Shown here in pieces: positions 11,742-44,495 of a DNA stretch of 56,594 bases; positions within the stretch are counted from its first letter, which is position 1, and every line of letters begins with the position of its first letter. A program made the translations under genes and the position numbers. The stretch covers positions 1 through 56,594 of the forward strand of contig CAKMJZ010000034.1 in NCBI GenBank assembly GCA_927435855.1, written 5' to 3'. Under the pieces are notes generated by a model. It was not told the origin of the DNA, made no database searches, and saw nothing but the letters and a program-made list of their open reading frames with translations. The stretch is from an uncultured Erysipelotrichaceae bacterium (GTDB lineage: Bacteria; Bacillota_I; Bacilli_A; Erysipelotrichales; Erysipelotrichaceae).

Positions 11742-12803
11742 TCATTTCGGGCACTTAAGAAACTGCTTTTCGACAAACGGTGAGAAAAACAGTCGTAATA
11801 AGCTTCCGTAACGAAGTTTAAAAGTTAAGATATCTCCTACCCGATGGCCACTGTCATGTGTCAACTCACATAGCAAATGATCGCTGCTAGCACCGATGAT
11901 TGATACATTGGGATCGAGTGCAACCATGTTCAAATCCGTATCGAGAAGTCCGATGGCACTGATAGCTACCCGTCGCATGCCTTTATCTTCGAAATGTGTT
12001 TTATTCCCAAAAGCATCAAACCCGGTTTCACCTACAGGCATCGAAGGTTTTGTTTTAATTTCAATAATTTGAGTGTGCAATAAAACGACATCATCATAAG
12101 TGTCTTCCAATCGAGTCTGATAAGCTGTTTCTACACCAAGAAAGAAAGATTCGCCTAATCGCAACTGATTGATTGGCAAATTCAATCCACGCTGAAGCAA
12201 GTGTAAACTTGATGAGTTACCACCTGAAACAATCGTGCAATCCGGCACGATTTGTTGGACCTTTTCCTGCATGACCTTCAGTTTTTCAAGAATGGAAAGC
12301 GTCGGTATCAGACCTCCAAAACACGTAAAGTTTGCACCTAAACCAACCAAGCGGATATGGCGAAAGTGTTTGACCATCTCCGCAAGTAAGTAAAGTTGTT
12401 CGATATTATGAATTCCTTCGCGCAAATCTCCCATATCGATCATCAGGATGATATCGTGAACTTTACCCTTGGCCCGTGCCGCAACCTCAAGAGCGATAAT
12501 GGTATCCCACTCGCTGTTTAAAGAGACATCAGATCCCATGACAATAGCTTCGGCCTCAGATTTCATAGGCAGACGAAGCATCATTTTACGCATAGGTAAA
12601 GGATTGCGTGCTAGATTTTCAATCCGTGAATCACCAATCGTCTTAACACCTTCTTCAAAAAAGATGCGATTAAGTAATGGATGACCCCCTGAGACTTTAT
12701 TGACACCGACAACCTCAATGCCTTGTTTTTGACACAACTCAGAAATCGTTCGTACATTGTGTCTGAATTTTTCACAGTCAATCGTTATTGCAGGATATTT
12801 CAT
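11742..12803 (-). CDS. orr: Ornithine racemase (PLP, alanine-racemase N-terminal fold)
   Basis: Interconverts L- and D-ornithine to supply the D-ornithine used by the aminomutase. The 353-residue protein has the fold-type III PLP lysine segment VVGVNKVSGGHP, a (beta/alpha)8 barrel and GGNSSSLHLL near the phosphate site. It is the last gene of the ornithine operon and overlaps the GlmL-like gene by 4 bases. Similar proteins are annotated as alanine/ornithine racemase family enzymes; the operon context points to ornithine. Confidence 0.9.
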   Translation of the reverse strand: MKYPAITIDCEKFRHNVRTISELCQKQGIEVVGVNKVSGGHPLLNRIFFEEGVKTIGDSRIENLARNPLPMRKMMLRLPMKSEAEAIVMGSDVSLNSEWDTIIALEVAARAKGKVHDIILMIDMGDLREGIHNIEQLYLLAEMVKHFRHIRLVGLGANFTCFGGLIPTLSILEKLKVMQEKVQQIVPDCTIVSGGNSSSLHLLQRGLNLPINQLRLGESFFLGVETAYQTRLEDTYDDVVLLHTQIIEIKTKPSMPVGETGFDAFGNKTHFEDKGMRRVAISAIGLLDTDLNMVALDPNVSIIGASSDHLLCELTHDSGHRVGDILTFKLRYGSLLRLFFSPFVEKQFLKCPK

Positions 12804-16335: not shown

Positions 16336-16693
16336 TCAAAACACCTCCCGACTTGAAGTTGAGCGTGAAGAATGATTCATCAGCACACTTTTCAATTGTT
16401 TCACGAAGTGAAAGTCTATAATAATTCATAACTTTAATCAAACAATGACCCACACCGCTGCCAATCACTCCATTGGCAATCGCATATCCTACAATGGATG
16501 ATGCTTCGATACTACTAGCTCCCATACGTAAAAGCACCGAACGTTCGATAGAAGGTGTTGTATGTTGTCTGGCTAATTCGATCATCGGATCGACCAGTTG
16601 TTGACTCAATTGCCAAAAGCGGTTATGTAGCTCTTCATCCGTAAGATTTATCAATGAACTTCTTCGCTCATTGAAGTCATCATGTCGTTTCAT
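16322..16693 (-). CDS. oraS: D-ornithine 4,5-aminomutase, small S subunit
   Basis: A 123-residue accessory subunit that assembles with OraE. It starts MKRHDDFNERRSSLINLTDEEL and contains GVIGSGVGHCLIKVMNYY, matching the size and character of OraS. It overlaps ortB by 14 bases upstream and oraE by 14 bases downstream, indicating coupled translation and a stoichiometric complex. It has no cofactor motif of its own, as expected. Confidence 0.93.
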   Translation of the reverse strand: MKRHDDFNERRSSLINLTDEELHNRFWQLSQQLVDPMIELARQHTTPSIERSVLLRMGASSIEASSIVGYAIANGVIGSGVGHCLIKVMNYYRLSLRETIEKCADESFFTLNFKSGGVLNENV

Positions 16694-18098
16694 GTCCTAC
16701 CCCTTTCAACTCAATGAGTGCATTCTGTATCCATTCAACACTTTCATTGCATTCATGAGCCATATAAATCAAATCTTCGTTTGTAAACGAATGATTCGGA
16801 TGCATTTTTAACTGTTGTCTTAAGTAAGACAATCTCAATTGATTTAAATCAACATCTTGAGCTAGAATATCACGCGGATGCGCCGGAAAAACGATATTTG
16901 TACCGGCGATTTCATTTCGAGGATCACCAATCAAAATTTCAATACCGTTGTTTTTCGCAAAACTCAGTTGTGCATTGTAATGTTTTCCGGCACTGGTATA
17001 TTCCGTTTCCTGCACGACAATGATTTCATCTTCGCTCATATGTTGAGCTAATGAAAATGCGGCTGCCAACGAGGTATTGCCCGCCGGTCCCCGCTCCATT
17101 CCTTCAAGCTTCGCAAGTGCTTCAGTAATATAAAAGACTTCTCCCTGTTTGACCAGAAGATAACGGTCCATATAGCGCAGGGCACGTGCGGCGGAATAAA
17201 TGACATCTGAACGATCCGGATAGATTGCAAAAGGAAATCCGAAACCGGTATGACCGGTCGTAAATGATTTTCGATTGAAATCTTGATCGCTGGCCATGTG
17301 TAATCCGTGTAAATTTACACTGGCCGCAATGATTTTACAGTTACTGCCTGCTTTTTGCGCACCACGGGCTGTAGCGGTCAGATTCCCGCCACCGGCATGA
17401 GTAACAACGATGGCACTGGGATCCTTTCCTGTCAACCTTCGAATGTCATCCACACATTCCATTCCCAACGTTTCCAGTCCAGCGATACCGTAAGGACTGT
17501 ATAAAGATGCATTGAAATAACCGGTTTTATCCAAAAGGTCCAAAAAGACCACAAACAGTTCCGGTCCCACTGAACATTGAACGACTTCCGCACCATAGGC
17601 TTCGATTGCCCGTGCTTTTTCGATGATTTCAGGCTGATAGATGCCTTGAGAATCAAAACATTCCTGAACAATAATGCACTTTAAATTGAGTTTGGCACAC
17701 ATCGCCGCCACGGCAGCACCGTAATTACCGGATGTTGCCGCAATCACGCCTTTATAACCTAGTTTCTTAGCATGATATACACTAATAGCAGCTCTTCGGG
17801 CTTTAAAACTTCCTGAAAGGTTACCTGCTTCATCTTTTAGAAATATGCGAGCACCAAATCCTTCAGCAGATAGCTTTTTAATTAAGCTATTAATGTTCTT
17901 AAGTTCCAACATCGGAGTTGAACCAACTCCTAAAGAACTCTGAATACGCATGGCTTCCTCAATCGGATATCCCGTCTCTTCCATCATTTTTTCATAATCA
18001 AAAGCGATGTCCGATTGTTTATATTTTAAGAAGTCGACATCGATCGCCTTTTTCAGTATCTCATTCTTTCGATTGAGAATCGCCTGTGCTTTATTCAT
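16680..18098 (-). CDS. ortB: 2-amino-4-oxopentanoate thiolase, beta (PLP) subunit
   Basis: With OrtA cleaves 2-amino-4-oxopentanoate with CoA to acetyl-CoA and D-alanine. The 472-residue fold-type II PLP protein resembles threonine synthase/cysteine synthase. LSGSFKARRAAIS holds the PLP lysine, ATSGNYGAAVAAM the asparagine loop, and THAGGGNLTAT the phosphate-binding glycine loop. It overlaps ortA by 8 bases and oraS by 14. The pairing with ortA and ord makes the assignment firmer than the PLP fold alone would allow. Confidence 0.95.
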   Translation of the reverse strand: MNKAQAILNRKNEILKKAIDVDFLKYKQSDIAFDYEKMMEETGYPIEEAMRIQSSLGVGSTPMLELKNINSLIKKLSAEGFGARIFLKDEAGNLSGSFKARRAAISVYHAKKLGYKGVIAATSGNYGAAVAAMCAKLNLKCIIVQECFDSQGIYQPEIIEKARAIEAYGAEVVQCSVGPELFVVFLDLLDKTGYFNASLYSPYGIAGLETLGMECVDDIRRLTGKDPSAIVVTHAGGGNLTATARGAQKAGSNCKIIAASVNLHGLHMASDQDFNRKSFTTGHTGFGFPFAIYPDRSDVIYSAARALRYMDRYLLVKQGEVFYITEALAKLEGMERGPAGNTSLAAAFSLAQHMSEDEIIVVQETEYTSAGKHYNAQLSFAKNNGIEILIGDPRNEIAGTNIVFPAHPRDILAQDVDLNQLRLSYLRQQLKMHPNHSFTNEDLIYMAHECNESVEWIQNALIELKGVGHETT

Positions 18099-18399
18099 GT
18101 GAATCCTCGCTTAACAAATTACGCAATTGATGTTCAATATACGCGGTTTCAACTAGATAGTCCCCAAAGGAATGCTCATAATTGGGCATGATGTCGATTA
18201 ACTTGCCACTGATTATTCTTTCGGTCTTGGTTTTGATTGTACAATCATCCCCAACCACACATTTTTCATCCACCAGAAATCCCTTGATTCTCAAATGAAA
18301 ATCCGTTTGACGGGTATCTGAAGGTATGTTGGACTGGCGTTGATCAGCTCTCAGATATAACTGTTCGATCAAAACCCAATCACCTTTGATGGCTAGCAT
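18091..18399 (-). CDS. ortA: 2-amino-4-oxopentanoate thiolase, alpha subunit
   Basis: A 102-residue small subunit starting MLAIKGDWVLIEQLYLRADQR. It is mostly beta with conserved segments FLVDEKCVVGDDCTIKT and YEHSFGDYLVETAYIEHQLR. The role is assigned from its place between ord and ortB, its OrtA-like length and its character. It overlaps ord by 7 bases and ortB by 8. Confidence 0.92.
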   Translation of the reverse strand: MLAIKGDWVLIEQLYLRADQRQSNIPSDTRQTDFHLRIKGFLVDEKCVVGDDCTIKTKTERIISGKLIDIMPNYEHSFGDYLVETAYIEHQLRNLLSEDSHE

Positions 18400-19439
18400 A
18401 ACTCTTCCTCGAGATACAGTCTCATATCCCCCAATATCGCTCGTGGCAAAGGTAAATCAAGCATAGTTTTAATACCCGGTCGCGCATTGATCACGGCAGG
18501 TATACTATTGATAGCCATGGCAATCGTACCGATACCGCCATCGACTTCAGGGGTAATGACCATTGATACCGGAGGTGTACCGACGATGGTAATATAATCC
18601 CCAGTAGAGATACCCTCACTTTGCGGTTCGACTTGTTGAGGGTGTTTAAGAGTGATAAAAGGATAATCATTTACATAGGCGATTGCGACCATATCGCATC
18701 CGGCCACATCTCCCGCATCAACGGTAGCATGCGGTGCAACCCGATTGATCGTAGAAACGATCGGACGATTTTTTACTTCGATTTTATCAAAATCGGTATG
18801 AAAAGCTTCGGACATCATCGCCAGACTCTGATCAAATCCGACATGTCCTGCCAATGTTCCTTCTTTTTGACGCTGATAAAACTTGGACACAGAGATGCCG
18901 ACACCTTGTTCGTGCATGACCGATTTGCCAAAAGGTGACAGTGAATTAACTCGGCTGACCTCAATTTTCTCAACATTGGTACACACTGAAGTCAATGCGA
19001 TGACTAAAGCATCCATCATAAATCCCGGATTAATTCCGGTACCCAATACCGTAACTCCGTGCTCCTTCGCTTTACGATGAATCAGCTCGGAAATTTCTTT
19101 GTCTGCAGCCGATGGATAAGCCATTTCTTCAGCAATCGATATGACATTCATCTTTCGTTGTACACAAGCCAATACTTTATCTTTTGAAGTCTTCACAAAT
19201 GAATCCGTACATAAAATAGCAACATCAGCATTGGTTTGACTTAATCCTTCTTCTTCATTTGAAATCATTAACGGAAACGGATTTAACAGTTCGACAAGTT
19301 CATCTACCCGTCGCCCGATCTTATCGCCCCTGGCGATGACAGTAACTATTTCTACACCCTTTTTAGTTGATAATGCTTTGATAACGCCGGCACCCATCGC
19401 ACCGATCCCCCATACACAAACCCGAATGGCTCTGCTCAT
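18393..19439 (-). CDS. ord: 2,4-diaminopentanoate dehydrogenase
   Basis: NAD(P)-dependent oxidative deamination of 2,4-diaminopentanoate to 2-amino-4-oxopentanoate. The 348-residue protein has the N-terminal Rossmann motif VWGIGAMGAGVIKAL and a dihydrodipicolinate-reductase-like layout with GTGINPGFMMD in the catalytic half. The start is supported by AAAGGAG. It is the first gene of the ord-ortA-ortB-oraS-oraE-glmL-orr operon, and its promoter contains a cre site, so catabolite repression is likely. Confidence 0.95.
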   Translation of the reverse strand: MSRAIRVCVWGIGAMGAGVIKALSTKKGVEIVTVIARGDKIGRRVDELVELLNPFPLMISNEEEGLSQTNADVAILCTDSFVKTSKDKVLACVQRKMNVISIAEEMAYPSAADKEISELIHRKAKEHGVTVLGTGINPGFMMDALVIALTSVCTNVEKIEVSRVNSLSPFGKSVMHEQGVGISVSKFYQRQKEGTLAGHVGFDQSLAMMSEAFHTDFDKIEVKNRPIVSTINRVAPHATVDAGDVAGCDMVAIAYVNDYPFITLKHPQQVEPQSEGISTGDYITIVGTPPVSMVITPEVDGGIGTIAMAINSIPAVINARPGIKTMLDLPLPRAILGDMRLYLEEELC

Positions 19440-19476: not shown

Positions 19477-19505
19477 ATTTTAGCTTAAAAAAAGGGATTT
19501 TTTAA
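19477..19505 (-). promoter_or_regulatory. Promoter of the ornithine-degradation operon
   Basis: The minus strand reads TTAAAA, 17 bases, TAAAAT. The element lies in the 62-base gap after the RND gene, with its -35 touching that gene's stop codon. A weak hairpin with a T7 run (GGG..CCCTTTTTTT) overlaps it and may partly terminate the efflux operon. Confidence 0.6.
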
Positions 19506-22500
19506 CCCCCGTTTTCTCTAATAATCAAATGATACAACACCGGTACGATAACCATTGTCAAAATTGTGGACATTAACAGGCCAAAAAACAATACTAATGC
19601 CATTGGTGAAGTCATTGGATCGTTGGAAATAATCAACGGAACTAATCCGATACACGTTGTCAACGTAGTAAGCATAATTGGACGATAACGTTGATCCACC
19701 GCATCTTTGCAACTGCTGATAACTGATTTACCCATGCGAACCCCTTCATCCATGACTTCCATCAGTAGTATTCCGTTATTTACGACAATTCCAATCAAAC
19801 TTACTGCACCTAACAAAGCCATCGCCTGAATGTCAATTTGGAATATATACAGTCCTAAAAAAACACCTGTTAAGGACAATGGAATACTAGTCATGATAAT
19901 AAGTGGTTTTGATAATTTATCAAACTGTACCAAAAGAATCATGTAAATCAATGCAATGACAATCAGCGCAGAAATCCCTAGATTTGATACCAAATCAGTA
20001 ATATTCTTAAGTTCTCCCTTATAGTCGATTTTTGAGTCGCCAATTAACAAATCTTCATTAATCAACTCTTTAAAAGCAAGTTCAATGGATGCCGCTGAAT
20101 AACCCGGCAATACATCAGCTAAGACTGTCACGGTACGCTTACGGTTTTGTCGGTATATCGAAGGAAGTGTTGCCTGAATGTCCACTCGTGCTAACTGACT
20201 CAGTTGCATATAAGCGTCGGTCGCTGAAGACTTAATAGGTAATCGATAAAGTTGCTCAAGCGAATTGATATCGGCTTTAACCAAAATTTCCATTTCAGTT
20301 CCGCCAGATTTAAATCCCGAAGGAGTCGCACCCATCAAAGCTGTATTGATTTGCTTGACGATGTCATATTTCAAAATGCCGCTGGTTGCAAGATAATCTT
20401 CATCAATTCGAACGACATATTCATATTCTTTTGAAACAAACGAATCACGTATGGAAGTAGTTCCGGGAATCGTTGATAGCAACTCACGAATGTTTGCGGA
20501 TGTAGCAAGAAGATCATCCAAATCTTCCCCATTCAAAGCAAAAACCAACTTTGCTTCAACAGGCATAGCATATTCAAGATATCGAACCTCTACTTTGGCA
20601 CCAATGACAGTCTCATTAATCCTTTGTTGAATAGCAAATCCGAATTCTTCATTGCTCTTATACAAACTGTCTGTCAAGTCAATTGTTAATAACAGTTGAG
20701 CAACATCTAACGCCGGACTGCTGTTAACCACGGTAATGAAAAATTTAGGTAATCCCGTTCCCACGGATGAGGTCACACTTTTTACCTCTGAAAATTCTGT
20801 GACTAACTGATAAATCTGATCATGAATTTCTGATGTTTTCTCTAAAGAAGCTGACTCAGCTTCAACATTGATATAAATGACAGGTTTATCAGAATACGGA
20901 AAGAAGCTCATGTTTAGCTGAGTAAACAACAATGCCGCAATCAGCAACGTGGCAAAAGCTAAGGCAATTGCCATCTTAGGATATCGCAATCCTGCAATCA
21001 ACATTTCATCGAAAAAACGACGAACCGGGGAGCGTTTAGTTTTCTCAATACGCTGCTGACTTTCCGGTTTGAAAAATAGATAGGCAAATACAGGTAAAAT
21101 AAGCATCGCTGTAAAATATGAAGCGATGAGCGTTGAGATTATGACGATTGGAATAGTAGCAACTGTTTTACCAATGACACCAGGGATAAACAATAAGATT
21201 CCAAAAGTGACAATCGTTGTCAGCGTTGACGTAAAAATCGGCCGTGAAGTTTCTTTGACCGCATTTTCAATAGCCAACAGTTTCTCTTCGCCATCATTCA
21301 AACGGCTTTGAATCGCCTCACAAATGACGATACCATTATCAACCAGTATTCCCAAAGAGATGATCAGTGCCGCAATTGATATGAAGTGAAACTCGATTTT
21401 CATTAAGAACATCACAATAAATGTAACCAAAATAGAAATTGGCAGAATGATTGACATGATCAGAGCATTGCGAAGATGAACACCGATCATAACGATAATT
21501 ACAATTAAAACAATGCTTTCCAGCAAATTGAAAATAAAGGAATTAATCGAGCGATCGATATCTTCTGGTGAATAAGTCACTTCCGAAAACTCAATATCCT
21601 GAGGAACTTGAGCCTTCATTGCATCAATTACTTTTCGAACATTTCCACCAATGATGACCGCATTGGTATCATTTTCAAAATAACCGGTAAGCAATACAGC
21701 ATTTTGTCCGTTATGTTGATAAAAGTACTGATTTTTCGCTTCAATACTGATTGTTGCAACATCTTTTAAACGTACGAAACCGACCTGCTCCATTGAACCG
21801 CTAATGACGATATTTTCTATATCTTTAAGCGTCTCAAAGGTTGCCGGTGTTTGAACATTGATTTTGGAATCATCATAATCAATTGAACCTGAAGGAATCG
21901 TTAGATTTTGAGCTTGAAGCAAACCGACGATTGTTTCCATCGAGACTCGATATAAATACAAATCGTCGATATTAACATTAATGACGACTTGTTTCTCAAG
22001 ATTTCCATCGATATCAACACGCGTGACTCCATTGACCTGCTCTATTTCTGTCTGGATGCTTTGTGCATACGTAACCAAATCATCCATGTTATATTCATCA
22101 TTGGATAAAGAAATGATAAATTGCGGAACCTCAGTTAGATCACTTTTAATCACACTTTCCATCGCTAAAGGCGGAAGTTCTTTTTGCACATCAGCCATTA
22201 ACTCACGTACACCTGCCATTGCAACATCCGCATCAACATCGATTTTAAACATGATCACGACCACCGAAGCACTATTGACAGAGTATGAATCTAGAACATC
22301 GATCCCAGCTAAACGACTAAGTTTATCTTCGATTTTCTTGGTTACCATCTCTTCGACTTCAGTAGAAGTCGCCCCCGGATACACCGTTGTGATTAATGCC
22401 GCTGGAAGGTTGGTGTTGGGATTCTCCTGTTTAGGAATCAGATAATAGCTGTACATACCGAAGAAAACGAAAAATATCAAGGATAAAAGCACGATTTGTC

Positions 22501-22534
22501 GCTTCAAAATGAATAATTTTACAAGTTTACTCAT
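19502..22534 (-). CDS. RND-family efflux transporter (AcrB/HAE1-like permease)
   Basis: A proton-driven exporter of about 1010 residues. MSKLVKLFILKRQIVLLSL is the first membrane helix, then two large extracytoplasmic loops and two bundles of helices. TM4 carries LGILVDNGIVICEA with a single proton-relay aspartate; TM10 carries IGIVVNNGILLMEV. The start MSKLVK is chosen over the longer track ORF because of GAGGT and an 8-base ATGAGTAA overlap with the adaptor gene. It pairs with the adaptor and TetR genes upstream. No outer-membrane channel gene is present, as expected for a Gram-positive. The substrate is unknown (drugs or lipids are possible). Confidence 0.93.
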   Translation of the reverse strand: MSKLVKLFILKRQIVLLSLIFFVFFGMYSYYLIPKQENPNTNLPAALITTVYPGATSTEVEEMVTKKIEDKLSRLAGIDVLDSYSVNSASVVVIMFKIDVDADVAMAGVRELMADVQKELPPLAMESVIKSDLTEVPQFIISLSNDEYNMDDLVTYAQSIQTEIEQVNGVTRVDIDGNLEKQVVINVNIDDLYLYRVSMETIVGLLQAQNLTIPSGSIDYDDSKINVQTPATFETLKDIENIVISGSMEQVGFVRLKDVATISIEAKNQYFYQHNGQNAVLLTGYFENDTNAVIIGGNVRKVIDAMKAQVPQDIEFSEVTYSPEDIDRSINSFIFNLLESIVLIVIIVMIGVHLRNALIMSIILPISILVTFIVMFLMKIEFHFISIAALIISLGILVDNGIVICEAIQSRLNDGEEKLLAIENAVKETSRPIFTSTLTTIVTFGILLFIPGVIGKTVATIPIVIISTLIASYFTAMLILPVFAYLFFKPESQQRIEKTKRSPVRRFFDEMLIAGLRYPKMAIALAFATLLIAALLFTQLNMSFFPYSDKPVIYINVEAESASLEKTSEIHDQIYQLVTEFSEVKSVTSSVGTGLPKFFITVVNSSPALDVAQLLLTIDLTDSLYKSNEEFGFAIQQRINETVIGAKVEVRYLEYAMPVEAKLVFALNGEDLDDLLATSANIRELLSTIPGTTSIRDSFVSKEYEYVVRIDEDYLATSGILKYDIVKQINTALMGATPSGFKSGGTEMEILVKADINSLEQLYRLPIKSSATDAYMQLSQLARVDIQATLPSIYRQNRKRTVTVLADVLPGYSAASIELAFKELINEDLLIGDSKIDYKGELKNITDLVSNLGISALIVIALIYMILLVQFDKLSKPLIIMTSIPLSLTGVFLGLYIFQIDIQAMALLGAVSLIGIVVNNGILLMEVMDEGVRMGKSVISSCKDAVDQRYRPIMLTTLTTCIGLVPLIISNDPMTSPMALVLFFGLLMSTILTMVIVPVLYHLIIRENGG

Positions 22535-23834
22535 TTTCGATGACCTCAGCAATCTTCACTCTGACACCCGGCCTTACCAGTCGTCCTCCTTCAATGACAA
22601 CAAGATCACCTATACTTAGACCAGTGGTAAGTACCATTTGGTTATTTATCGTTGTTAAAATTACTTTACGCTTAACAATTCGATCATCAACAACAATATA
22701 TACATAGTCTTCTCCATCGTTTTGAATGATGTTGAGCATCAGCCAAATCCCAGTGCGTACACCTAGATCAATAGAAACACCAGCAGTTTCTCCAATATTG
22801 ACTTGCGAATAGTCATCAATTGAAATGTAAGCTTGATACGTACGGCTCATCGAATCCGGAATTTTCGCGATTTCATAGACTTTTCCAACATAATTTACCT
22901 GATTGACGGTAATTTCAGCATTTTGACCGGTTTTAATCGTGTTAATCATGGTTTGAGAGACACCGATGACCGCAGACATCTGATAGGACGAAACAACAAC
23001 GACCGGAGCTAACGGTGTTGCTAGTTCCCCACTGTTTGATACGACTTTAACGACAAATCCATCCATACTGGCAAATAAGCGTGTAGACTCCAAATTATTA
23101 TTGGCATAAGTTAAGTTGTTTTTAGCAATTGTATATTGTGAATTCGCCGCATCATAACTAGCCTTTGCTGCCTGATAGCGGGAGTAAGCAATGTCTACTT
23201 CAACTGGAGTACCATTGGCCACAGAAGCATCATACTCTGCTTTAGCAGTCGTGGCTTCAATATTTTTTGCTGTGTAATCAATAAATGAGGCATTTGCCTG
23301 AGCAGATCCTTCCCCAAATTCAGAAAGGTCAGATTGATATTGCTCAAATGCTTGATCAGCGATATCTTGCTTAATTAAGTAGTCTTGCTTTAACATTTCC
23401 AAAGCTTCATCGGCATTATCCTTTTTATTCAAGTAATCCTGCTCTTCTGCCTTCATGTTTGCGGCTGCCTGACGACGCTGAGAATCAGCGGCTTTTAGAT
23501 TCTCTTGGGCATTACGCACTTGAATCTGGGCCTGTTGAGAATCTATGGAAGCAAGCAGTGTACCTTTTTTGACATTTTGACCTTCAGTCACATATACACG
23601 TTCAATCGTTCCAATCGTAGCAAATGTTGCCTGTTGGATGGTTTTCGGCTGTATGACGCCAATATACTTAGCAAATTCATCATTAGAAGTTTCACTGATG
23701 TTCAATACGCGAACTTGTGTTACTTTTTCATCAGTGACCACTGGTTCATCGTTATCAGAAAAGAGAACCGATATTCCGATTCCCGTGATTATCATAAGAA
23801 CAATAACGATGACTTGCCATCTATTTTTTCTCAT
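22527..23834 (-). CDS. RND adaptor protein (membrane fusion protein, HlyD/AcrA type)
   Basis: A 435-residue periplasmic-adaptor-like protein anchored by an N-terminal helix (RWQVIVIVLMIITGIGISVLF). The lipoyl/barrel half QATFATIGTIERVYVTEGQNVKKGTLLASI is followed by a long coiled-coil hairpin (about 100-240). The returning lipoyl half (LFASMDGFVVKVVSNSGEL), beta-barrel and membrane-proximal domains follow. It starts with AGGAGAATTGC and overlaps tetR by 14 bases and the permease by 8, so the three genes form one unit. Confidence 0.92.
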   Translation of the reverse strand: MRKNRWQVIVIVLMIITGIGISVLFSDNDEPVVTDEKVTQVRVLNISETSNDEFAKYIGVIQPKTIQQATFATIGTIERVYVTEGQNVKKGTLLASIDSQQAQIQVRNAQENLKAADSQRRQAAANMKAEEQDYLNKKDNADEALEMLKQDYLIKQDIADQAFEQYQSDLSEFGEGSAQANASFIDYTAKNIEATTAKAEYDASVANGTPVEVDIAYSRYQAAKASYDAANSQYTIAKNNLTYANNNLESTRLFASMDGFVVKVVSNSGELATPLAPVVVVSSYQMSAVIGVSQTMINTIKTGQNAEITVNQVNYVGKVYEIAKIPDSMSRTYQAYISIDDYSQVNIGETAGVSIDLGVRTGIWLMLNIIQNDGEDYVYIVVDDRIVKRKVILTTINNQMVLTTGLSIGDLVVIEGGRLVRPGVRVKIAEVIENE

Positions 23835-24447
23835 AATGCAATTCTCCTGCTGATATCATCAAAGTAAAAAGATTCAAATAAGTCATGATCATCCACTCGA
23901 TTTCTTCCTGTGCACTATCTTGAGAGTCTTCAAAAAGTCGAACTAACCCGCAGAAAATAGCACTGGCTAACATAGATGTTATCATGTCGGTACGTCGATC
24001 AAACAGATCGACTTGTGAAAACCATCGCTCGACCATAACGGTTATGATTCTTTTTATGGAAGTAACCACCTGATCAGCCATCCGCTGATGACGAATCAGT
24101 GTCATAAATTCTTTCCTTTCAGTTTCAAATATATGAGCGAAACCCATCGATAAGCGACGAATTCGTGCATCAAATTCAGCACTTCGACCTTGCTCATTCG
24201 AAATGTTCGTTGGTAGATTTTGTATTTCTCCGGTAATGATTTTATCAATCTTATCGATTGTCGATGACAATAAAGCATCCGCCAAATCTTCCTTATTTTC
24301 AAAATAGCGATAAAGATTTCCAACGGTCATGTGAGCTGCTTTAGCGATATTACGCATGGAAGCACCTTCATAACCATGGTTATAAAACTCGTTTCTGGCG
24401 GATTGGATGATTGCTTCTTTTAACTCAGGTTTTAGGATTTGTGCCAT
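23821..24447 (-). CDS. TetR-family transcriptional regulator of the efflux operon
   Basis: A 208-residue protein with an N-terminal TetR helix-turn-helix: AIIQSARNEFYNHGYEGASMRNIAKAAHMTVGNLYRYFENKEDL. The C-terminal domain would bind a ligand. GGAGGG precedes the ATG. It is the first gene of the tetR-adaptor-RND operon and probably represses its own promoter, which contains two small palindromes. Confidence 0.93.
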   Translation of the reverse strand: MAQILKPELKEAIIQSARNEFYNHGYEGASMRNIAKAAHMTVGNLYRYFENKEDLADALLSSTIDKIDKIITGEIQNLPTNISNEQGRSAEFDARIRRLSMGFAHIFETERKEFMTLIRHQRMADQVVTSIKRIITVMVERWFSQVDLFDRRTDMITSMLASAIFCGLVRLFEDSQDSAQEEIEWMIMTYLNLFTLMISAGELHYEKK

Positions 24448-28766: not shown

Positions 28767-30568
28767 TAATCTTCATCCATGGAAAGAACAGCCATAAACG
28801 CTTCCTGTGGGACCTCGACACTTCCCACTTGCTTCATGCGTTTCTTGCCTTCTTTTTGCTTTTCTAAAAGTTTCTTCTTACGGGTGATATCCCCGCCATA
28901 ACACTTCGCCAAAACGTTTTTACGTAAGGCTTTGATATCAGAGCGCGCAATGATCTTATTGTTAATCGCCGCTTGAATCGGAATTTCAAACTGTTGCCGC
29001 GGAATCAGCTTACGCATTTTTTCGGTAATGGCTTTCCCACGAGCATAAGCAAAATCACGGTGAACGATGGTTGACAGTGCATCCACGACTTCAGAATTTA
29101 AAAGTATATCCATTTTTACCAGCTTGGACTCATAATAACCATCCAACTCATAATCATAGGACGCATATCCACGCGTTGCCGATTTCAATCGGTCAAAGAA
29201 ATCATATACGATCTCGCCCAATGGCAGCAGATAGTGCAAATGCATCCGACCGGCATCGACCGCAATCATCTCTTTATAAATACCCCGCTTTTTCTGGCAC
29301 AGTTCCATGACCGGACCGACATATTCGGTCGGCACCATGATCGTCGCCTTTACAAAGGGTTCTTCCATGTGATGTATCTTCTGTACATCGGGAAGTAATG
29401 AGGGATTATCGACGGAAATCATCGATCCATCCGTCATAAATGCGTGATAGACCACTGACGGTGCGGTTGCAATGAGTGATAGATTATACTCCCGTTCCAA
29501 ACGCTCCTGAACGACATCCATATGTAACAGTCCTAAAAATCCGCAACGGAACCCAAAACCCAAAGCCTGTGAGGTTTCAGCTTCATATTTCAATGAAGCA
29601 TCATTGAGTTGTAATTTCTCTAAAGCATCTCTTAAATCGTTATATCGATTGGATTCAATCGGATACAACCCGCAAAATACCATGGAATTTAATGTGCGAT
29701 AACCGGGTAACGGTTCAATTGCTCCATGTTGAGCAGAAGTGATCGTATCCCCGACGTGAACGTCTTTTACTGATTTTATACTTGCAGCAATCCAACCGAC
29801 TTCACCACAACTCAAAGAATTGCGCTTAATCTCTTTAGGTGTACGAATACCACATTCAACTACTTCGTAAAAGGCATTGGCAGCCATAAAGCGGATTTTA
29901 TCGCCGATTTTGACAGATCCTTCTTTAATTCGTACATACGCGATGACCCCACGATAGGAATCATAGATGGAGTCAAAGACCAATGCCTTCAGTGGAGCAT
30001 CGGGATCACCTTGTGGTGCAGGAACTCTGGCTACAATGGCTTCAAGAACCTGCTCGACGTTTAATCCGGTTTTCGCGCTGATTTGCGGAGCATTGGTAGC
30101 TTCCAATCCTATGACGTTTTCAATTTCTTCAATCACACGAATCGGATCAGCAGCTGGTAAATCAACTTTATTAATGACCGGAATGATTTCCAAATTGTTA
30201 TCCAAAGCAAGATATACATTGGCCAATGTCTGAGCTTCGATGCCTTGTGAAGCATCAACGACCAAAACTGCCCCTTCACAAGCGGCAAGTGACCGTGATA
30301 CTTCATAAGTAAAGTCAACATGACCCGGCGTATCAATTAAATGAAACGTATATTCGTGTCCATCGTTAGCAGTATATTTCAATTGCACGGCATTTAGTTT
30401 AATAGTAATACCGCGCTCACGCTCCAAATCAAGTGTATCGAGCATTTGCTCCATCATCTCACGGTTATCGACGGTTTTGGTCATTTCTAAAATACGGTCA
30501 GCCAATGTTGACTTGCCGTGATCGATATGAGCGATAATAGAGAAATTGCGAATATATTTTTGGTTCAT
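28766..30568 (-). CDS. lepA: Elongation factor 4 (LepA)
   Basis: Ribosome-associated GTPase that back-translocates or helps stalled ribosomes. The 600-residue protein starts [22 protein letters not shown] (G1 loop). The track ORF is nine residues longer, but GAAAGGA points to this ATG. Further motifs are [18 protein letters not shown] and the LepA C-terminal domain ending [30 protein letters not shown]. An extended -10 (TGTTATAAT, 30594-30602) lies just upstream. Confidence 0.98.
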
Positions 30569-30593
30569 AAAAATCCTTTCAAAAGCATAACAC

Positions 30594-30602
30594 ATTATAA
30601 CA
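30594..30602 (-). promoter_or_regulatory. Extended -10 promoter of lepA
   Basis: The minus strand reads TGTTATAAT about 25 bases before the chosen lepA start. No clear -35 is seen. Confidence 0.6.
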
Positions 30603-30683
30603 AAACAAGCGCAATAAAAAAAGACTTACATCTATCTTTTGGTCAACCACCCCAAATTCGATAAGCATCGCTTGTAAAAAACT

Positions 30684-30711
30684 AAAAAAGCGTCATCATC
30701 AGACAACGCTT
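30684..30711 (-). terminator. Terminator after the LytTR-partner gene
   Basis: The minus strand reads AAGCGT-TGTCTGATGATG-ACGCTT followed by TTTT. The outer stem is six pairs, with a short inner TC/GA pairing. Confidence 0.75.
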
Positions 30712-30727
30712 AAATCTTTTATAGTAT

Positions 30728-31324
30728 TTACTGAGTTAGTAATCGGTAAGTAATATTGATGGTTTCATCCTGGATGTAATAAAGTCCACCCTCTTCAAAT
30801 AAATGCAAGATGTGTGATTTACCCTCTGAATCAACTGTGGAGAATACGGCGATGGATGAAATACGTAGGGCATACTCCACGACCAGTGTCGGAGCTTTAC
30901 CGATCAGATCCTTTACGAATGCTTCACGGCCTTCTTCAATGTATATGATCTGATCGATAGATAAAGTAATCACCATGTTACTTACTTCAGCATGAGCGCG
31001 CATGTCATACGCACTTTCATCTGTATCCGGTGAATTATCTTTATTTGAAATAGCAAACTTTTCAAAATTGTCTTGAAGTGTAGTAACTGCCCCTTCATTG
31101 ACATTTTTGGCCAAATTATCAAACTGAGGTGTATTGGTTAAAAGCAAGGCAACAGCTAAAGCGGAAAGTGCGGCACCTTGAAACCAGAACATCGGTGTTT
31201 TAAATAAATCGTACTTGCGATTTGTTTTGACAGATAAACGTTTTTGCCACATATAGCTTCGAATGATCTGAGTAAGCATCCAAATGACACCCAACACCAG
31301 AATCAGCCAAGATAGTTCTTTCAT
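30728..31324 (-). CDS. Two-helix membrane protein paired with the LytTR regulator
   Basis: A 198-residue protein I do not recognise. TM1 is about residues 4-22 (LSWLILVLGVIWMLTQII) and TM2 about 46-64 (FWFQGAALSALAVALLLT). A soluble C-terminal domain of about 130 residues follows, predicted alpha/beta, with IEEGREAFVKDLIG and a final IQDETINITYRLL. It starts 1 base after the LytTR gene stop and has its own terminator, so the two form an operon. The arrangement recalls LytTR regulatory systems in which a membrane protein holds its LytTR factor inactive (HdrRM, BrsRM). That role is inferred from context only. Confidence 0.75.
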   Translation of the reverse strand: MKELSWLILVLGVIWMLTQIIRSYMWQKRLSVKTNRKYDLFKTPMFWFQGAALSALAVALLLTNTPQFDNLAKNVNEGAVTTLQDNFEKFAISNKDNSPDTDESAYDMRAHAEVSNMVITLSIDQIIYIEEGREAFVKDLIGKAPTLVVEYALRISSIAVFSTVDSEGKSHILHLFEEGGLYYIQDETINITYRLLTQ

Positions 31325-31325
31325 G

Positions 31326-31856
31326 CTACCCCTCCTTGCTTGATAAATATTCTTTAAACGATTTTGTATAACTGCGATTGACTTCGATTTTTTTCTTATT
31401 GTCCATAATCAGCGTAAGCTTTCCATTAAATCCTGAAGCGATTGCTTCAATGCGTGCCACATTGACGATGACAGATTTAGAAATGCGGAAGAACCCGGCC
31501 TGAAATAAGTCTTCTTCAAGTTGATATAGTTTAGCGGACAAACTGATTTCTGCTTTGTCTGTGTAGGCATATACATCATTACCATAGGATTCAATGGTGA
31601 ACACCTGATCAAAACGAACTCGCACTTCTCCACGCGAAGTTTTACCAGAAAGGATTCCACCCGTCTCTTTTTTGTATCTCTCCAACCAATCATGTAACAG
31701 ATCTAATTGGCTCAAATCAAAAACCAGATTGATTTTGCCCTCTTCGCTATCTGCGCTATTTCGGCAAATCACAATCTTATAGTCCGGTGATTCTTCAATT
31801 TTCAAGGTTTGTTTGATCTTTTCCTTCCCTGCGGGATCAAATTTGATCTTAAACAC
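31326..31856 (-). CDS. LytTR-domain DNA-binding regulator without receiver domain
   Basis: A 176-residue protein with a GTG start supported by GGGGAGGACATAAG. Residues 1-70 form an unassigned N-terminal alpha/beta region, not a response-regulator receiver. Residues about 75-172 are a LytTR domain: SRGEVRVRFDQVFTIESYGNDVYAYT, then FFRISKSVIVNVARIEAI and MDNKKKIEVNRSYTKSFKEYL. The latter segments are the classic RxHKSxxVN-like and VSRxYxxxF-like LytTR signatures. It probably binds imperfect direct repeats. It is co-transcribed with the membrane protein that follows. Confidence 0.88.
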   Translation of the reverse strand: MFKIKFDPAGKEKIKQTLKIEESPDYKIVICRNSADSEEGKINLVFDLSQLDLLHDWLERYKKETGGILSGKTSRGEVRVRFDQVFTIESYGNDVYAYTDKAEISLSAKLYQLEEDLFQAGFFRISKSVIVNVARIEAIASGFNGKLTLIMDNKKKIEVNRSYTKSFKEYLSSKEG

Positions 31857-31884
31857 CTTATGTCCTCCCCGGGCTTACACCCAT

Positions 31885-31912
31885 ATTCTAAACTACCTCT
31901 TTATACAGACAA
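31885..31912 (-). promoter_or_regulatory. Possible promoter of the LytTR operon
   Basis: The minus strand reads TTGTCT, 16 bases, TAGAAT, ending about 28 bases before the GTG start. Confidence 0.45.
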
Positions 31913-31913
31913 G

Positions 31914-31950
31914 CAAAAAAAGGTAAGTTACATTATTTATTCAATAACTT
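31914..31950 (-). terminator. Possible terminator after the ECF S-component gene
   Basis: The minus strand has AAGTTA...TAACTT (six pairs, 14-base loop) close to a seven-T run; the stem includes the end of the coding region. Confidence 0.45.
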
Positions 31951-32427
31951 GCGCATCATAGAAGAGAATCCAGGTGCAAGTGCAATTGCAATCAAAGCAC
32001 AACCCATACCCTGTATGATGTTATAGCTTGCTGATGGAATGAAATACTCCCAGCTTTGAGTCAAAAAGACATCGGTAAGACCGTAGGCCAACGTGATCCA
32101 AAGTCCACCGGCAATAAAAGGCACAAATCGCTTCAACGAACCTTCAAGTTTGCGATACAAATATGAAACCAAGACACCTTCACTGCCCTTAATCAAAACT
32201 GTAAATATGATGTACTGAGGAAATCCCAACGTAAAATCCGCTAATCCGCTTCCTACTCCACCAATTACAAACATCATGGGGGCAGGCAATACCGTTGCCA
32301 GCAACATAATCAGTGCATCTCCGATATTTAAGTATCCGATAAAGATCGGTACTGCCACAAAAATCGTTAACGCCGCAACCATCCCTGTAAAAAGCGCGGT
32401 AACTGTAATTTTCTTTGTTAATGACAT
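31933..32427 (-). CDS. ECF transporter substrate-binding (S) component
   Basis: A 164-residue membrane protein with about five to six helices. It has the S-component pattern GYLNIGDALIMLLATVLPAP, GGVGSGLADFTLGFPQYIIFTVLIKGSEG and a final GMGCALIAIALAP. S components capture a vitamin or small cofactor and share an energising EcfAAT module encoded elsewhere. The ligand is not readable from sequence. The start MSLTKK follows AGGAAGTGG and makes the track ORF eight residues shorter. It overlaps the fmt stop by 10 bases, so it is probably co-transcribed with fmt. Confidence 0.85.
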   Translation of the reverse strand: MSLTKKITVTALFTGMVAALTIFVAVPIFIGYLNIGDALIMLLATVLPAPMMFVIGGVGSGLADFTLGFPQYIIFTVLIKGSEGVLVSYLYRKLEGSLKRFVPFIAGGLWITLAYGLTDVFLTQSWEYFIPSASYNIIQGMGCALIAIALAPGFSSMMRKLLNK

Positions 32428-33359
32428 ACATCCACTTCCTTTCCTATCCAAGTCTTGCCGATACCGTTATAAAAGTCGGTGGCTTTGGTTTTTTTCTTGC
32501 CTTCTAGCTGTAATTGTTGAATATAAATCCAACCGTCATTTACAGCCAACACCATAGCCTCTTGATCATACGCGATAAAAGTCGGAAGTGAATACTCGTG
32601 CTTCCCCTGTACAAACAGAGCCTGATGGATTTTGCACTTTTTCCCTTCAATCAACAAGTGACCGACCGGCCAGCTGATCAAACCACGAATCTGATTGTAA
32701 ATCATCCGACCGCCTTTGTCAAAATCAATCCTCTCATCCGCTGAAGTAATATTAAAAGCGTATGTTACTTTACTTTCATCTTGCTCGCAAAACACGGCTT
32801 TATATTCGATCACCAGTCTCAAATCTTCGATGATGCAAAGTGATGCACATTCCATCAGTCGATCATGCACGATTTCAGTCGTATCATCCTCACCAATCGG
32901 TACTTCACGTTGAGCAAATACCGGACCCGCATCCATTTTTACAGCCATTTTCATCATCGATATTCCGGTTTTCATTTCACCATCAATGACCGCTTTGTGA
33001 ATTGGAGCTCCGCCACGATACTTTGGCAAAAGTGAAGCATGAACATTGATACATCCAAATCGAGGTGTTTCTAATAAGCGTTTGGGTAACATTTGTCCAT
33101 AAGCGCATGTGACAATCATGTCCGGTTGAAAAGAGAGAATATCATCGATGGCATCCTTTACTTTCAACGGTTGTAACACCGGAATATCAAAAGTCAATGC
33201 CATTGTCTTGATAGGAGTTGGCATCATTTTCTGATCGCGACCGATGGGTTTATCGGGTTGAGTAACTACCGCAACAACGTCATACTCTTCTTTGATCAAT
33301 GATTTTAAAACAGCGCTCGCAAAGACCGGTGTTCCCATAAATACCACTCTAACGTTCAT
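32418..33359 (-). CDS. fmt: Methionyl-tRNA formyltransferase
   Basis: Formylates initiator Met-tRNA. The track ORF has a 60-residue non-homologous N-terminal run-on; the true start MNVRVVFMGTPVFASAVLKSL follows GAGGTGGCAT and gives 313 residues, the normal length. The catalytic region CINVHASLLPKYRGGAPIHKAV and GISMMKMAVKMDAGPV is intact, with the C-terminal OB fold from about 205. An extended -10 (TGCTATAAT) lies just upstream. In many Bacillota fmt neighbours def or rsmB; here it is next to rpsT instead. Confidence 0.97.
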   Translation of the reverse strand: MNVRVVFMGTPVFASAVLKSLIKEEYDVVAVVTQPDKPIGRDQKMMPTPIKTMALTFDIPVLQPLKVKDAIDDILSFQPDMIVTCAYGQMLPKRLLETPRFGCINVHASLLPKYRGGAPIHKAVIDGEMKTGISMMKMAVKMDAGPVFAQREVPIGEDDTTEIVHDRLMECASLCIIEDLRLVIEYKAVFCEQDESKVTYAFNITSADERIDFDKGGRMIYNQIRGLISWPVGHLLIEGKKCKIHQALFVQGKHEYSLPTFIAYDQEAMVLAVNDGWIYIQQLQLEGKKKTKATDFYNGIGKTWIGKEVDVCH

Positions 33360-35061: not shown

Positions 35062-36033
35062 TTACCTCATCGCTTCTATTAAAAATAACTCAAAACCCAT
35101 CGGTCCGTTGATCAGACCGGTCTTTATTTTCTGATCCAACTGCGCCAACATTTCCAAAAGTTCGCATACCCGATCTAAATTAGTCATGCGGGAATATCCA
35201 AGTGCTTTGGAAAAAACAAAATCATGTACGCCAAGTTTTTCGCGAATATCATCATCCGAAATTCGCTCGCGTTTATAAACCAATATTTGAAACATGACCC
35301 TTAACTGCCAGGCAATGGATGGCACCAAGGCCACCGGATCGTATTTCAACACTTGTAAATCCTTATAAATCCTTAATGCGGCACCGAGATCTTTTGATAC
35401 GACCGCTGCTGACAGATCGAAAACATTATCTTCTAACGGTCTGGAAATGAGTACATCCAATACTTTTTTGTCAATTGGATCTGGAAACAAAGCCAGTTTA
35501 TCCAACTCACGCATACAGGTTTCAATCTGCTTTGGTAAACGGTTGATCAGATGTCTCATTTTATCATCATCTAATTTGATTTGACGTACCAAGCACTGCC
35601 GGCGAATGATGCTTTCATATTCATTTTTACTTATTTTCGCAACTTCAATCCACACGGTATTCTTACCTTTGTTTTTTACCAACGGTTTTGTTATTTCAGC
35701 TGTTTTGTTCATCTTATCATTTTCAAACATAATCAACAAAATCACTTCTTTGGGCATCGTCTCAACAAGAGAAGTCCACGTTTTTAAAATTGTGGGATTA
35801 TCAAAATTCTTTAGTGTAAATCCTGGAGGATTTATTAATTCAATGACCTTAATATCGGAAAAGAAAGAAATCGTTTGGATTTCCTCAAATAATTCATCCC
35901 AATCAAAACTTGCTGAGTAACCGTCGAAAACAGCCGGTTCAATGCCCTTGGCTGATTTTTCATTCTTATCGACCCACTCTTTAGCTTTTTGTCTTAAGAA
36001 AAAGCGGTCGCTACCGGTTATGACAACATTCAT
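35062..36033 (-). CDS. holA: DNA polymerase III delta subunit
   Basis: Clamp-loader subunit that opens the sliding clamp. The 323-residue protein begins MNVVITGSDRFFLRQKAKEWV and has the AAA+-like domain without Walker motifs. DNVFDLSAAVVSKDLGAALRIYKDL and AWQLRVMFQILVYKRE are typical of domain III. It overlaps comEC by 4 bases, the same gene order as in B. subtilis (comEC-yqeN). Confidence 0.93.
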   Translation of the reverse strand: MNVVITGSDRFFLRQKAKEWVDKNEKSAKGIEPAVFDGYSASFDWDELFEEIQTISFFSDIKVIELINPPGFTLKNFDNPTILKTWTSLVETMPKEVILLIMFENDKMNKTAEITKPLVKNKGKNTVWIEVAKISKNEYESIIRRQCLVRQIKLDDDKMRHLINRLPKQIETCMRELDKLALFPDPIDKKVLDVLISRPLEDNVFDLSAAVVSKDLGAALRIYKDLQVLKYDPVALVPSIAWQLRVMFQILVYKRERISDDDIREKLGVHDFVFSKALGYSRMTNLDRVCELLEMLAQLDQKIKTGLINGPMGFELFLIEAMR

Positions 36034-37955
36034 TTTATCACCGTTCTCATTATACCAAATCCACCCGCAGATGACATTACAAAATGGAAATTTCCCAAGG
36101 TAGAAATCCGGATGTCGCCATCCCTATGGGTCGAAAGATAAGGAACGCGAAATTGCCATAGTGTTCTAAGTGTTTGTTTGTGAGGATGACCGTAAACTCG
36201 TGGATCGGCACTGATGATGGCAAGACGTGGTTGAAGGTTGGCAAGCAGTCCTTCGGAGGTACTTGTCTTACTGCCATGATGAGCCAGTTTAATCACATCC
36301 GCATACAAAAACGGAAACTTTCGTATCAAGTCAGCCTCTCTATCCTTCGAAACATCCCCAAGAAACAAATAGGTAAGACCGTTGATAGAAAATAAATGTA
36401 CTAAACTATTGTCATTGTCACTTACCCCTTCTTTCTTTTCAAGTAAGCTATGTAAAGAAAAACCCAAATGCTCAATATCTACATGATCTGTAGTGATTTT
36501 ACTGATCGAGAAATCTTTTTGAAGCATCACTAAACCACCACTATGATCATTGTCCATATGAGAAATAACGACTGCGTTCAAGTGTGAGATACCCCGATAC
36601 CACAAATTGGCTCTCAACAAAGATGAAGTGCTCGCTCGACCGGTATCAATCAGCCAAGCTCCTTGTTTATATGGTAATTCGATCAATGCGCTATCGGCTT
36701 GAGCCACATTGAAAAATGTTACGCTAGTAAATGGATTTATAAATAATCTTAGTTGAAACAAGAGCAATAATCCACACAGTCTGACGATTAATTGCTTCTT
36801 GGTTAATCGTGTAGAAAATACTAAAATCAGCCATACAGCAGAAAGTAAGATTCCAGGATAACCGACCAATCGTAAGTACGAAAAAAAGTGGAAACCGTCA
36901 AAGGATAGCCATTCACAGATTTTTACGAATTGAACGGTAAACTGTGGAAAGAAGATACATAGCCATGCAAAAAGGTAGCTAATAACAGCTATAAAGCGGA
37001 AAATCGGAAAAAAAAGTGCAGTTACAAAGTCAAAGCGATATGTCAATAATGTCTGAATCAAGGGGAGGATCGCCATTCTGGTTAAAAATCTAGGATAATC
37101 AAATGCATTGATCAACGATAATGTACAAGGAATGAGTAATGCCGGATGAAATAAGTGATGAGGATAAAAACAAAGCAACAATGCATATGCAAGACTTACT
37201 CTGCCCAGAGCTTTTAGTTTGAAATAGCGACACCCATCGGATAAAAGTATTCTTGAAAGAATAAATGAGCTCCCAAAAATCATCCAGCACAACAATAAGA
37301 TTAGGGTGGTTATATACTGGCGTATTTTTTCCGTATAAAAATACCCCAATATCCCTTTTAGTACTGAAACTAGAGATGATACAATCAAACCGCTGGAGAG
37401 AAATATCGCCGTAAAGTGACCGACTTGCGGTGCAGGATGGTTAAAAATGTAAGCTTTGAGCCATCCGGAAGCATCGATTTTCCCGATTCGTTCAAACAAA
37501 CGATTTCTGAAGGAATTCCCCTTCAAAATAATTTCAACAGATTCCACATCAATACTCCCGCGATGATTACGTTGATTGGACCATCTTTGAATGGGATTTG
37601 ATACAAAGGTCGAGCCAATCCTTATCGGGACTATGGTACCGATGAGGCATACTTGATCATCCAAAGACATTCCTTTTTGCTCAAATATAGAATACTCATT
37701 TCCATCGATTGAAAGAATCGTTACTTTTTCACGTATATCAACGATTTTTCCACATAAACTATTTGATTCACTAGGAAAGTGAAGAAGGATCGAAAGGCAA
37801 ACTAAGGAGAAGAATAAGATGCTAAAATATGGGCCTACTCTTCTGTAAAGAAAAATCAGCAATAGACAAAACACAGGTAAATTGATTGGAGTCGCTGTTA
37901 ACTCGAAAAGTATCGTACTTATCAATACAAAGAAAAAACCACGCTCTAAAGACAT
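36030..37955 (-). CDS. comEC: ComEC/Rec2 DNA-uptake channel protein
   Basis: Inner-membrane channel for single-stranded DNA entry in natural transformation. The 641-residue protein has an N-terminal membrane region, an OB-like domain (SLCGKIVDIREKVTILSIDG) and the central Competence domain with many helices. A C-terminal metallo-beta-lactamase-like domain carries VVISHMDNDHSGG and IKLAHHGSKTS. It is a little short compared with about 770 residues in B. subtilis but no domain is missing. It overlaps comEA by 10 bases and holA by 4. Confidence 0.95.
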   Translation of the reverse strand: MSLERGFFFVLISTILFELTATPINLPVFCLLLIFLYRRVGPYFSILFFSLVCLSILLHFPSESNSLCGKIVDIREKVTILSIDGNEYSIFEQKGMSLDDQVCLIGTIVPIRIGSTFVSNPIQRWSNQRNHRGSIDVESVEIILKGNSFRNRLFERIGKIDASGWLKAYIFNHPAPQVGHFTAIFLSSGLIVSSLVSVLKGILGYFYTEKIRQYITTLILLLCWMIFGSSFILSRILLSDGCRYFKLKALGRVSLAYALLLCFYPHHLFHPALLIPCTLSLINAFDYPRFLTRMAILPLIQTLLTYRFDFVTALFFPIFRFIAVISYLFAWLCIFFPQFTVQFVKICEWLSFDGFHFFSYLRLVGYPGILLSAVWLILVFSTRLTKKQLIVRLCGLLLLFQLRLFINPFTSVTFFNVAQADSALIELPYKQGAWLIDTGRASTSSLLRANLWYRGISHLNAVVISHMDNDHSGGLVMLQKDFSISKITTDHVDIEHLGFSLHSLLEKKEGVSDNDNSLVHLFSINGLTYLFLGDVSKDREADLIRKFPFLYADVIKLAHHGSKTSTSEGLLANLQPRLAIISADPRVYGHPHKQTLRTLWQFRVPYLSTHRDGDIRISTLGNFHFVMSSAGGFGIMRTVIK

Positions 37956-38410
37956 AATCGGTCTTTAAATTTTGCCAGTGTTTTCTCCCCAATACCTTTG
38001 ACGTTCAACAGATCTTCGATTTTTTGAAATAAGCTGACAGAAGATCGATAGTCAATGATCGCCTGAGCTGTCTTTTCTCCAATTCCAATAAGGGAATCTA
38101 GATCAGCGAGTGTCCCCGTATTGATTGATACACAAGGAATCGCTTTTTTGAAGGGAATATACAAAACATCTTTATGATGCAAAATTGTCTGTAAATTTAT
38201 CGCAGACAGGTCTCCTTCAGGTAGTACATTAACTCTTTTTAGAACTTCCTCAATTGTTGGATAAGGATCGGTAAATATCGTCCCGGAATGCTCGATAGCT
38301 CCATTGACCGTGATTGAGAAATTCCGATCGATTTGAAAATCAAATGGTTTAGGTATGGTGCAAGAAGATAGCAAGACAAGCGTACAAATTACAAAAAGAA
38401 TGCGGTTCAT
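37946..38410 (-). CDS. comEA: ComEA-like DNA receptor, predicted lipoprotein
   Basis: A 154-residue extracytoplasmic DNA-binding protein for competence. The C-terminal 65 residues form a double helix-hairpin-helix: NTGTLADLDSLIGIGEKTAQAIIDYR and IEDLLNVKGIGEKTLAKFKDRL. Between this and the N-terminus is an SLBB-like segment. Unusually, the N-terminus MNRILFVICTLVLLSSC has a lipobox (LSSC), so it would be lipid-anchored rather than held by a transmembrane helix. GAGGTGATC precedes the ATG. Confidence 0.92.
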   Translation of the reverse strand: MNRILFVICTLVLLSSCTIPKPFDFQIDRNFSITVNGAIEHSGTIFTDPYPTIEEVLKRVNVLPEGDLSAINLQTILHHKDVLYIPFKKAIPCVSINTGTLADLDSLIGIGEKTAQAIIDYRSSVSLFQKIEDLLNVKGIGEKTLAKFKDRLCL

Positions 38411-44280: not shown

Positions 44281-44307
44281 AAAAAAAAGTTCCTAAACTA
44301 CAGGAAC
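44281..44307 (-). terminator. Intrinsic terminator of the alaS T-box
   Basis: The minus strand reads GTTCCT-GTAGTTT-AGGAAC followed by eight Ts. Confidence 0.9.
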
Positions 44308-44489
44308 GAAAGTCTCGCGGTACCATCCTGATTCACGCATTGCGTGCACCTCTTGCGTCGTAACGTGACATCCACGGGAAAGTTTGTTTCCTCTTAAAAG
44401 CAGCTTCATCCACCAATACCGGAAACTTACACCATCCGTTTCCTCTCTGTAGGCTTGATTTGGATTACTCGACTTTATCATCGATTTAC
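44281..44489 (-). promoter_or_regulatory. T-box leader of alaS (alanine-responsive)
   Basis: The minus strand holds the T-box AGGATGGTACCGCG (44316-44329) followed by the terminator hairpin GTTCCT...AGGAAC plus T8. A GAAGCTGCTTTTAAG segment offers a GCT alanine specifier. No other gene lies between this leader and alaS. Confidence 0.93.
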
Positions 44490-44495
44490 AGTGGC

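Follow-up and report, generated by a model that had tools for sequence, protein, structure and literature searches.

The closest described relatives of the locus analyzed here are the LytTR Regulatory Systems (LRS) of Streptococcus mutans, above all HdrRM and BrsRM, in which a soluble LytTR regulator devoid of a receiver domain is encoded first and a membrane protein second, in a two-gene operon preceded by 9-bp direct repeats spaced by 12 bp and placed close upstream of the -35 element (Zou et al. 2018, PMC6193735). The signature of the group as a whole is a pair of 9-bp direct repeats, 11 to 13 bp apart, and followed about 10 bp further on by the -35 of the operon (PMC6193735, Tables 2 and 3). 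Loss of the membrane protein results in positive autoregulation, and inhibition was described for all five systems of S. mutans (PMC6193735); for HdrM, the mode of action is membrane sequestration (Xie 2020, as cited in PMC13384398). The usual LRS partner has three or four transmembrane (TM) helices and no periplasmic domain (PMC13384398), and four of the five S. mutans partners belong to DUF3021 or DUF2154. In the literature searched, LRS have been characterized only from S. mutans, with no signal described.

Here, we analyzed a stretch of 56,594 nucleotides (the window) from an uncultured Erysipelotrichaceae bacterium, in which a LytTR gene is followed by the gene of a two-helix membrane protein, both on the minus strand. 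We consider, with a probability of roughly 70%, that this pair is a variant LRS, with the partner as a putative membrane inhibitor and sensor and a predicted regulon of cell-surface genes. The preliminary description of this DNA had already likened the pair to HdrRM and BrsRM with a partner of a different shape, and this comparison holds: gene order and promoter resemble theirs, whereas the partner combines two TM helices with a domain that most likely lies outside the cell.

Organization and promoter of the LytTR operon

The first gene (31326-31856, minus strand) has a GTG start preceded by the ribosome site GGGAGG and encodes a LytTR-family regulator of 176 aa. As had been read from the translation alone, it lacks a receiver domain: the only domain recognized by Pfam was PF04397 (LytTR, E = 1e-22), at residues 78 to 171. 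This DNA-binding domain (31344-31625, minus strand) gave an HMM match of 81.6 bits in the genome and was modeled by AlphaFold with a pLDDT of about 80 to 90 over most of its length. It is preceded by an N-terminal region of about 77 residues (31626-31856, minus strand), close to the 70 or so estimated before, whose sequence is kept in close orthologues and whose length is similar in all of them, with a pLDDT of <50 at residues 1 to 48. We infer that this region is a candidate contact surface for the partner. Neither a receiver domain nor a partner histidine kinase was found at the pair with Pfam and NCBIfam, so that it does not qualify as a two-component system. In place of the earlier label of a candidate one-component membrane-controlled system, the locus is better named a two-protein LytTR Regulatory System.

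The partner gene (30728-31324, minus strand) starts 1 base past the LytTR stop. Regulator and partner are shown by the predicted signals on both sides to form a bicistronic unit with its own promoter and terminator, elements (the promoter with its direct repeats at 31885-31952) that were missing from the preliminary description. The promoter search found a -35 TTGTCT (31907-31912) and, 16 bp after it, a -10 TAGAAT (31885-31890), the only sigma-70-like promoter in the region 30560-32500. The repeat search placed two LytTR half-sites in front of it, GCAAGTTAT (31944-31952), which overlaps the 3' end of the upstream ECF transporter gene, and, 12 bp from it, GTAACTTAC (31923-31931), which lies 10 bp before the -35. 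The full layout, GCAAGTTAT-12-GTAACTTAC-10-TTGTCT-16-TAGAAT, all on the minus strand, reproduces the direct-repeat arrangement of the LRS. At the other end, a hairpin search located an intrinsic terminator after the partner gene, with a 10-bp stem and a T run (30688-30711, minus strand).

The repeats are conserved well beyond the window. A matrix built from other genera only scored the window site at 23.7, first among all places on both strands of the window; leaving aside the opposite-strand match at that position, the runner-up reached 10.9. Two half-sites separated by 11 to 12 bp and followed after 32 to 33 bp by a -10-like hexamer were present upstream of 17 of 17 orthologous loci (the window, five relatives of its genus and the orthologues from other genera), and 16 of these 17 regions contained the core YAACTTA, against an average of 0.56 for dinucleotide-shuffled regions. 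A matrix derived from published half-sites, mostly of the ACC type, did not single out the window site (rank 82), and the repeat claim therefore rests on the comparative matrix. The half-sites of the window are of the type GYAACTTA, a rarer form that differs from the ACCNCTTA of HdrRM and BrsRM and resembles that of the SMU_1070c/1069c-type LRS of S. mutans, whose half-sites (GCAACTTAG-11-GCAACTTGA) are the closest; there, however, ABC transporter genes are linked to the system, and none is found at the window locus.

The partner protein and the conservation of the pair

The partner is a membrane protein of 198 aa and putative inhibitor or sensor. It consists of TM1 (residues 3 to 21, 31262-31318, Kyte-Doolittle 1.93), a basic loop of 23 residues with 7 K/R and 1 D/E (residues 22 to 44, 31193-31261), TM2 (residues 45 to 63, 31136-31192, Kyte-Doolittle 1.76) and an acidic domain of 135 residues with 22 D/E and 10 K/R (residues 64 to 198, 30731-31135), all on the minus strand. 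The two helices and the soluble part of some 130 residues proposed earlier are thus both recovered. The positive-inside rule places the loop in the cytoplasm and both ends of the protein outside, which makes an extracytoplasmic location most likely for the soluble domain. This shape departs from that of the usual LRS partner with its three or four helices, and the protein carries neither DUF3021 nor DUF2154. In fact, Pfam and NCBIfam gave no match over the cut-off, in agreement with its initial assignment to an unknown family and against the possibility, raised at the time, that it might turn out to be a known DUF of unrelated function. The structure model had a pLDDT of 56, and at this low confidence its C terminus appeared beta-rich; the fold found no PDB match at E < 0.001, and a sequence profile found none in the PDB either. 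Beyond the genus, neither single-sequence nor profile searches returned a convincing homologue, and partners in other genera were recovered only by their position beside the LytTR orthologue. Within the genus, the dN/dS of 0.07 to 0.10 indicates a real protein under purifying selection.

Seven genera of Erysipelotrichaceae had a LytTR orthologue with >110 bits at this locus, in the order fmt, a riboflavin-type ECF transporter S component (in some), LytTR, partner and lepA or another gene. The ECF S gene, which is the upstream neighbor in the window (31933-32427, minus strand; PF07155, E = 3.2e-23), lies between fmt and LytTR in the genus, in genus g24 and at locus L042, and is absent from L036 to L038. 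Downstream of the pair, lepA is found in the genus and at L038, L040 and L041, and a different gene in genus g36 (pdxS-like) and at L037. Wherever the junction could be read, a two-helix protein followed LytTR, in five of five genomes of the genus and in 10 of 10 loci from six other genera (L036 to L041 and L043 to L046), so the two genes do co-occur in other genomes, the opposite of what had been named at the outset as a refutation. These counts include L039, readable only in part since its contig ends about 90 residues into the partner, and leave out L034 and L042, whose contigs end before it.

Sequence divergence is much faster in the partner than in the regulator. Between the window and the other genera, identity was 39 to 50% for LytTR and 19 to 25% for the partner, and between L037 and L038 it was 75% and 24%, respectively. 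In profile-profile comparisons, the partners of the genus and of genus g10 were alike only over 32 residues, covering TM1 and the basic loop, with a Trp-Gln-basic stretch of the loop common to both, and no link was detected between the partner of the genus and those of g36. With likeness confined to these 32 residues or absent, the homology of the partners rests on position and topology. Their architecture is nevertheless constant, with two TM helices (TM2 of L045 being under the cut-off), a basic loop of 20 to 36 residues and an acidic outside part of 73 to 156 residues.

This pattern bears on what the partner does. It could be an effector or a positive cofactor, for example a membrane anchor, with the N-terminal region of the regulator sensing a ligand in the cytoplasm. 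This region is kept in close orthologues and has no assigned function; moreover, in HigX, a transmembrane LytTR protein, the membrane part is required for activity (PMC13384398). We regard this as unlikely, because gene order, spacing, promoter repeats and the two-gene unit are those of LRS with a proven membrane inhibitor (PMC6193735), and a partner whose topology is kept while its sequence is little kept is likelier to be a sensor or inhibitor than an enzyme.

Similar pairs occur elsewhere in the family. At L052, L055 and also L059, a LytTR protein without receiver domain is likewise followed by a membrane protein, but these LytTR proteins are distantly related to that of the window, the loci are different, and the partners have four TM helices (DUF3021-type at L052 and L055) and no outside domain. 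At five further loci (L050, L051, L053, L057 and L058), a receiver-less LytTR gene precedes other two-TM proteins with larger outside domains (162 to 251 residues), so that the two-TM LRS architecture seems to extend beyond the window locus. More distant LytTR relatives in family f2 (L158 and L159) are encoded in one operon together with a short, multiply membrane-spanning protein of about 120 aa, not of the two-TM type, and a gene similar to D-2-hydroxyacid dehydrogenases comes next.

Predicted regulon and the question of competence

A blind search for the repeat pattern, allowing up to one mismatch, was carried out in seven genomes of the genus. In addition to the autoregulatory site, five of the seven contained a second conserved one, GCAAGTCAT-12-GCAACTTAY with small variations, which in most genomes sits 10 bp before TTTGCT-17-TACAAT. 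The genes behind it encode a DUF4358 lipoprotein, an MBOAT protein, which also resembles DltB (below the cut-off), and a DHHW/AlgX-like protein. The composite pattern of repeats plus promoter matched 13 times in the 16 genomes that have the system or belong to the genus, ten times at the two genus sites and three times in genome G287, versus 0 for the pattern read backwards. Within the genus, composite sites were found only at the operon's own promoter and at that of DUF4358.

The repeats might instead belong to another LytTR protein, which would then regulate the pair, the lipoprotein operons lying outside the control of the pair. LytTR half-sites are indeed alike across the family, and the window's genome contains three LytTR genes, including two of the receiver type. 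The composite sites, however, track the orthologue group: they were absent from all 29 family genomes chosen for lack of the LytTR orthologue (0/29), even though many LytTR proteins belonging to other groups occur in these bacteria. This makes regulation by another LytTR protein very improbable.

A regulon controlled by the pair is also indicated by the DUF4358 genes of other genera. A matrix trained exclusively on LytTR promoters served as a test independent of the way in which the sites had been found. Among genomes that have the system or belong to the genus, 12 of 19 DUF4358 loci reached a score of 15 or more, and these span five genera (g1, g10, g24, g36 and g76); in genomes without the system, none of the 17 loci evaluated reached this value. 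Some gene starts of the control are doubtful, and neither count is corrected for relatedness. Some script-assigned starts in this control run were wrong (L100 scores 18.9 with the correct one) and five loci went unscored, which makes the control with the composite pattern the cleaner of the two. The three-gene DUF4358-MBOAT-DHHW operon stands behind repeats in g1 (L155), g24 (L156) and g36 (L157, where the third gene was matched by position only). In G287, a g10 genome, the pattern matched 11 times versus 0 backwards, largely before lipoprotein genes, the other targets including a VanW-domain protein and an ABC transporter ATPase. One lipoprotein family was matched independently in two genera, g24 (L075) and g10 (L086 and L093), with mutual E values of 1e-23 to 1e-37.

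The distribution of these sites suggests that the system acts on genes of the cell surface (lipoproteins and envelope acylation) and not on DNA uptake. A link to the latter had been suggested at first from the neighboring comEA and comEC (36030-38410), some 4 to 7 kb (4.2 kb or more) upstream of the pair, and control of competence by HdrRM and BrsRM in S. mutans (PMC6193735) would be a precedent. Nevertheless, the LytTR repeat was not found upstream of either of these two genes, where nothing scored above 4 with the other-genera matrix, and the composite sites of the genus point elsewhere. Between the pair and comEA/comEC lie holA, a serine dehydratase gene, rpsT, fmt and the ECF S component. 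The order comEA-comEC-holA-rpsT-lepA is ancestral in Firmicutes, as in Bacillus-type genomes, and this speaks against a functional reading of the proximity. Joint control of competence by the pair and the nearby com genes is therefore the least probable of the alternatives, to the point of being hardly tenable, and the proposed link is not borne out.

Individual genomes depart from this picture. A search of the window's genome (about 70% complete) yielded the autoregulatory site alone and no DUF4358 operon, and G001 (68% complete) has the DUF4358 site and lacks the LytTR match. The G005 assembly has the DUF4358 gene and its repeat-bearing promoter at different contig ends (L160, end of C30; L161, start of C33) whose sequences do not match, meaning that the locus is either interrupted, possibly by an insertion between promoter and gene, or misassembled. 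Single-genome matches with one mismatch preceded genes for a sulfatase/LTA-synthase-like protein (L069 in G003), a beta-propeller protein (L070 in G006) and a serpin (L072 in G004); these sites are not conserved across the genus and are thus unproven.

Proposed mechanism and other features of the window

We infer inhibition, activation, DNA binding and signal alike in the following scheme. The partner would bind the regulator at the membrane and keep it off the DNA, as HdrM does with HdrR, while its C-terminal outside domain would detect some condition of the envelope. Upon the signal, the regulator would be released and bind the direct repeats, amplifying its own operon and switching on genes for surface lipoproteins and envelope O-acylation. 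The predicted targets would thus differ from the bacteriocins and competence governed by HdrRM and BrsRM. The chances seem to us even that this is a distinct class of LRS, defined by a fast-evolving extracytoplasmic sensor on the membrane inhibitor together with the control of surface modification (DUF4358/MBOAT/DHHW and lipoproteins). If so, it would be the LytTR counterpart of the envelope-stress anti-sigma systems; anti-sigma/ECF sigma pairs also join a cytoplasmic transcription factor to a small membrane protein with an outside domain, although the regulator here is a LytTR DNA-binding protein and not a sigma factor. The outside domain may serve as the sensor, and the genome comparisons provide a testable regulon with exact candidate binding sites. 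For the DUF4358-MBOAT-DHHW operon, a candidate regulator is put forward as well; the lipoprotein family of this operon was mentioned in a single paper of the literature searched.

The window contains several other features of note, all on the minus strand. Two T-box leaders (RF00230, Rfam) were detected, one of 100.7 bits (44299-44490) that precedes alaS and one of 114.8 bits (630-815) close to the edge of the window, on the far side of a gene for a LacI-type regulator. An ornithine degradation cluster (11742-19439) includes an OraE-like ornithine aminomutase gene (14143-16335) with aminomutase and B12-binding domains, the neighbors of which resemble OraS, threonine-synthase-like, dehydrogenase and racemase genes. 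Next to it (19502-24447), inspection of the translations by eye revealed an RND-type efflux transporter with a membrane fusion protein and a TetR regulator, in this case in a Firmicute.
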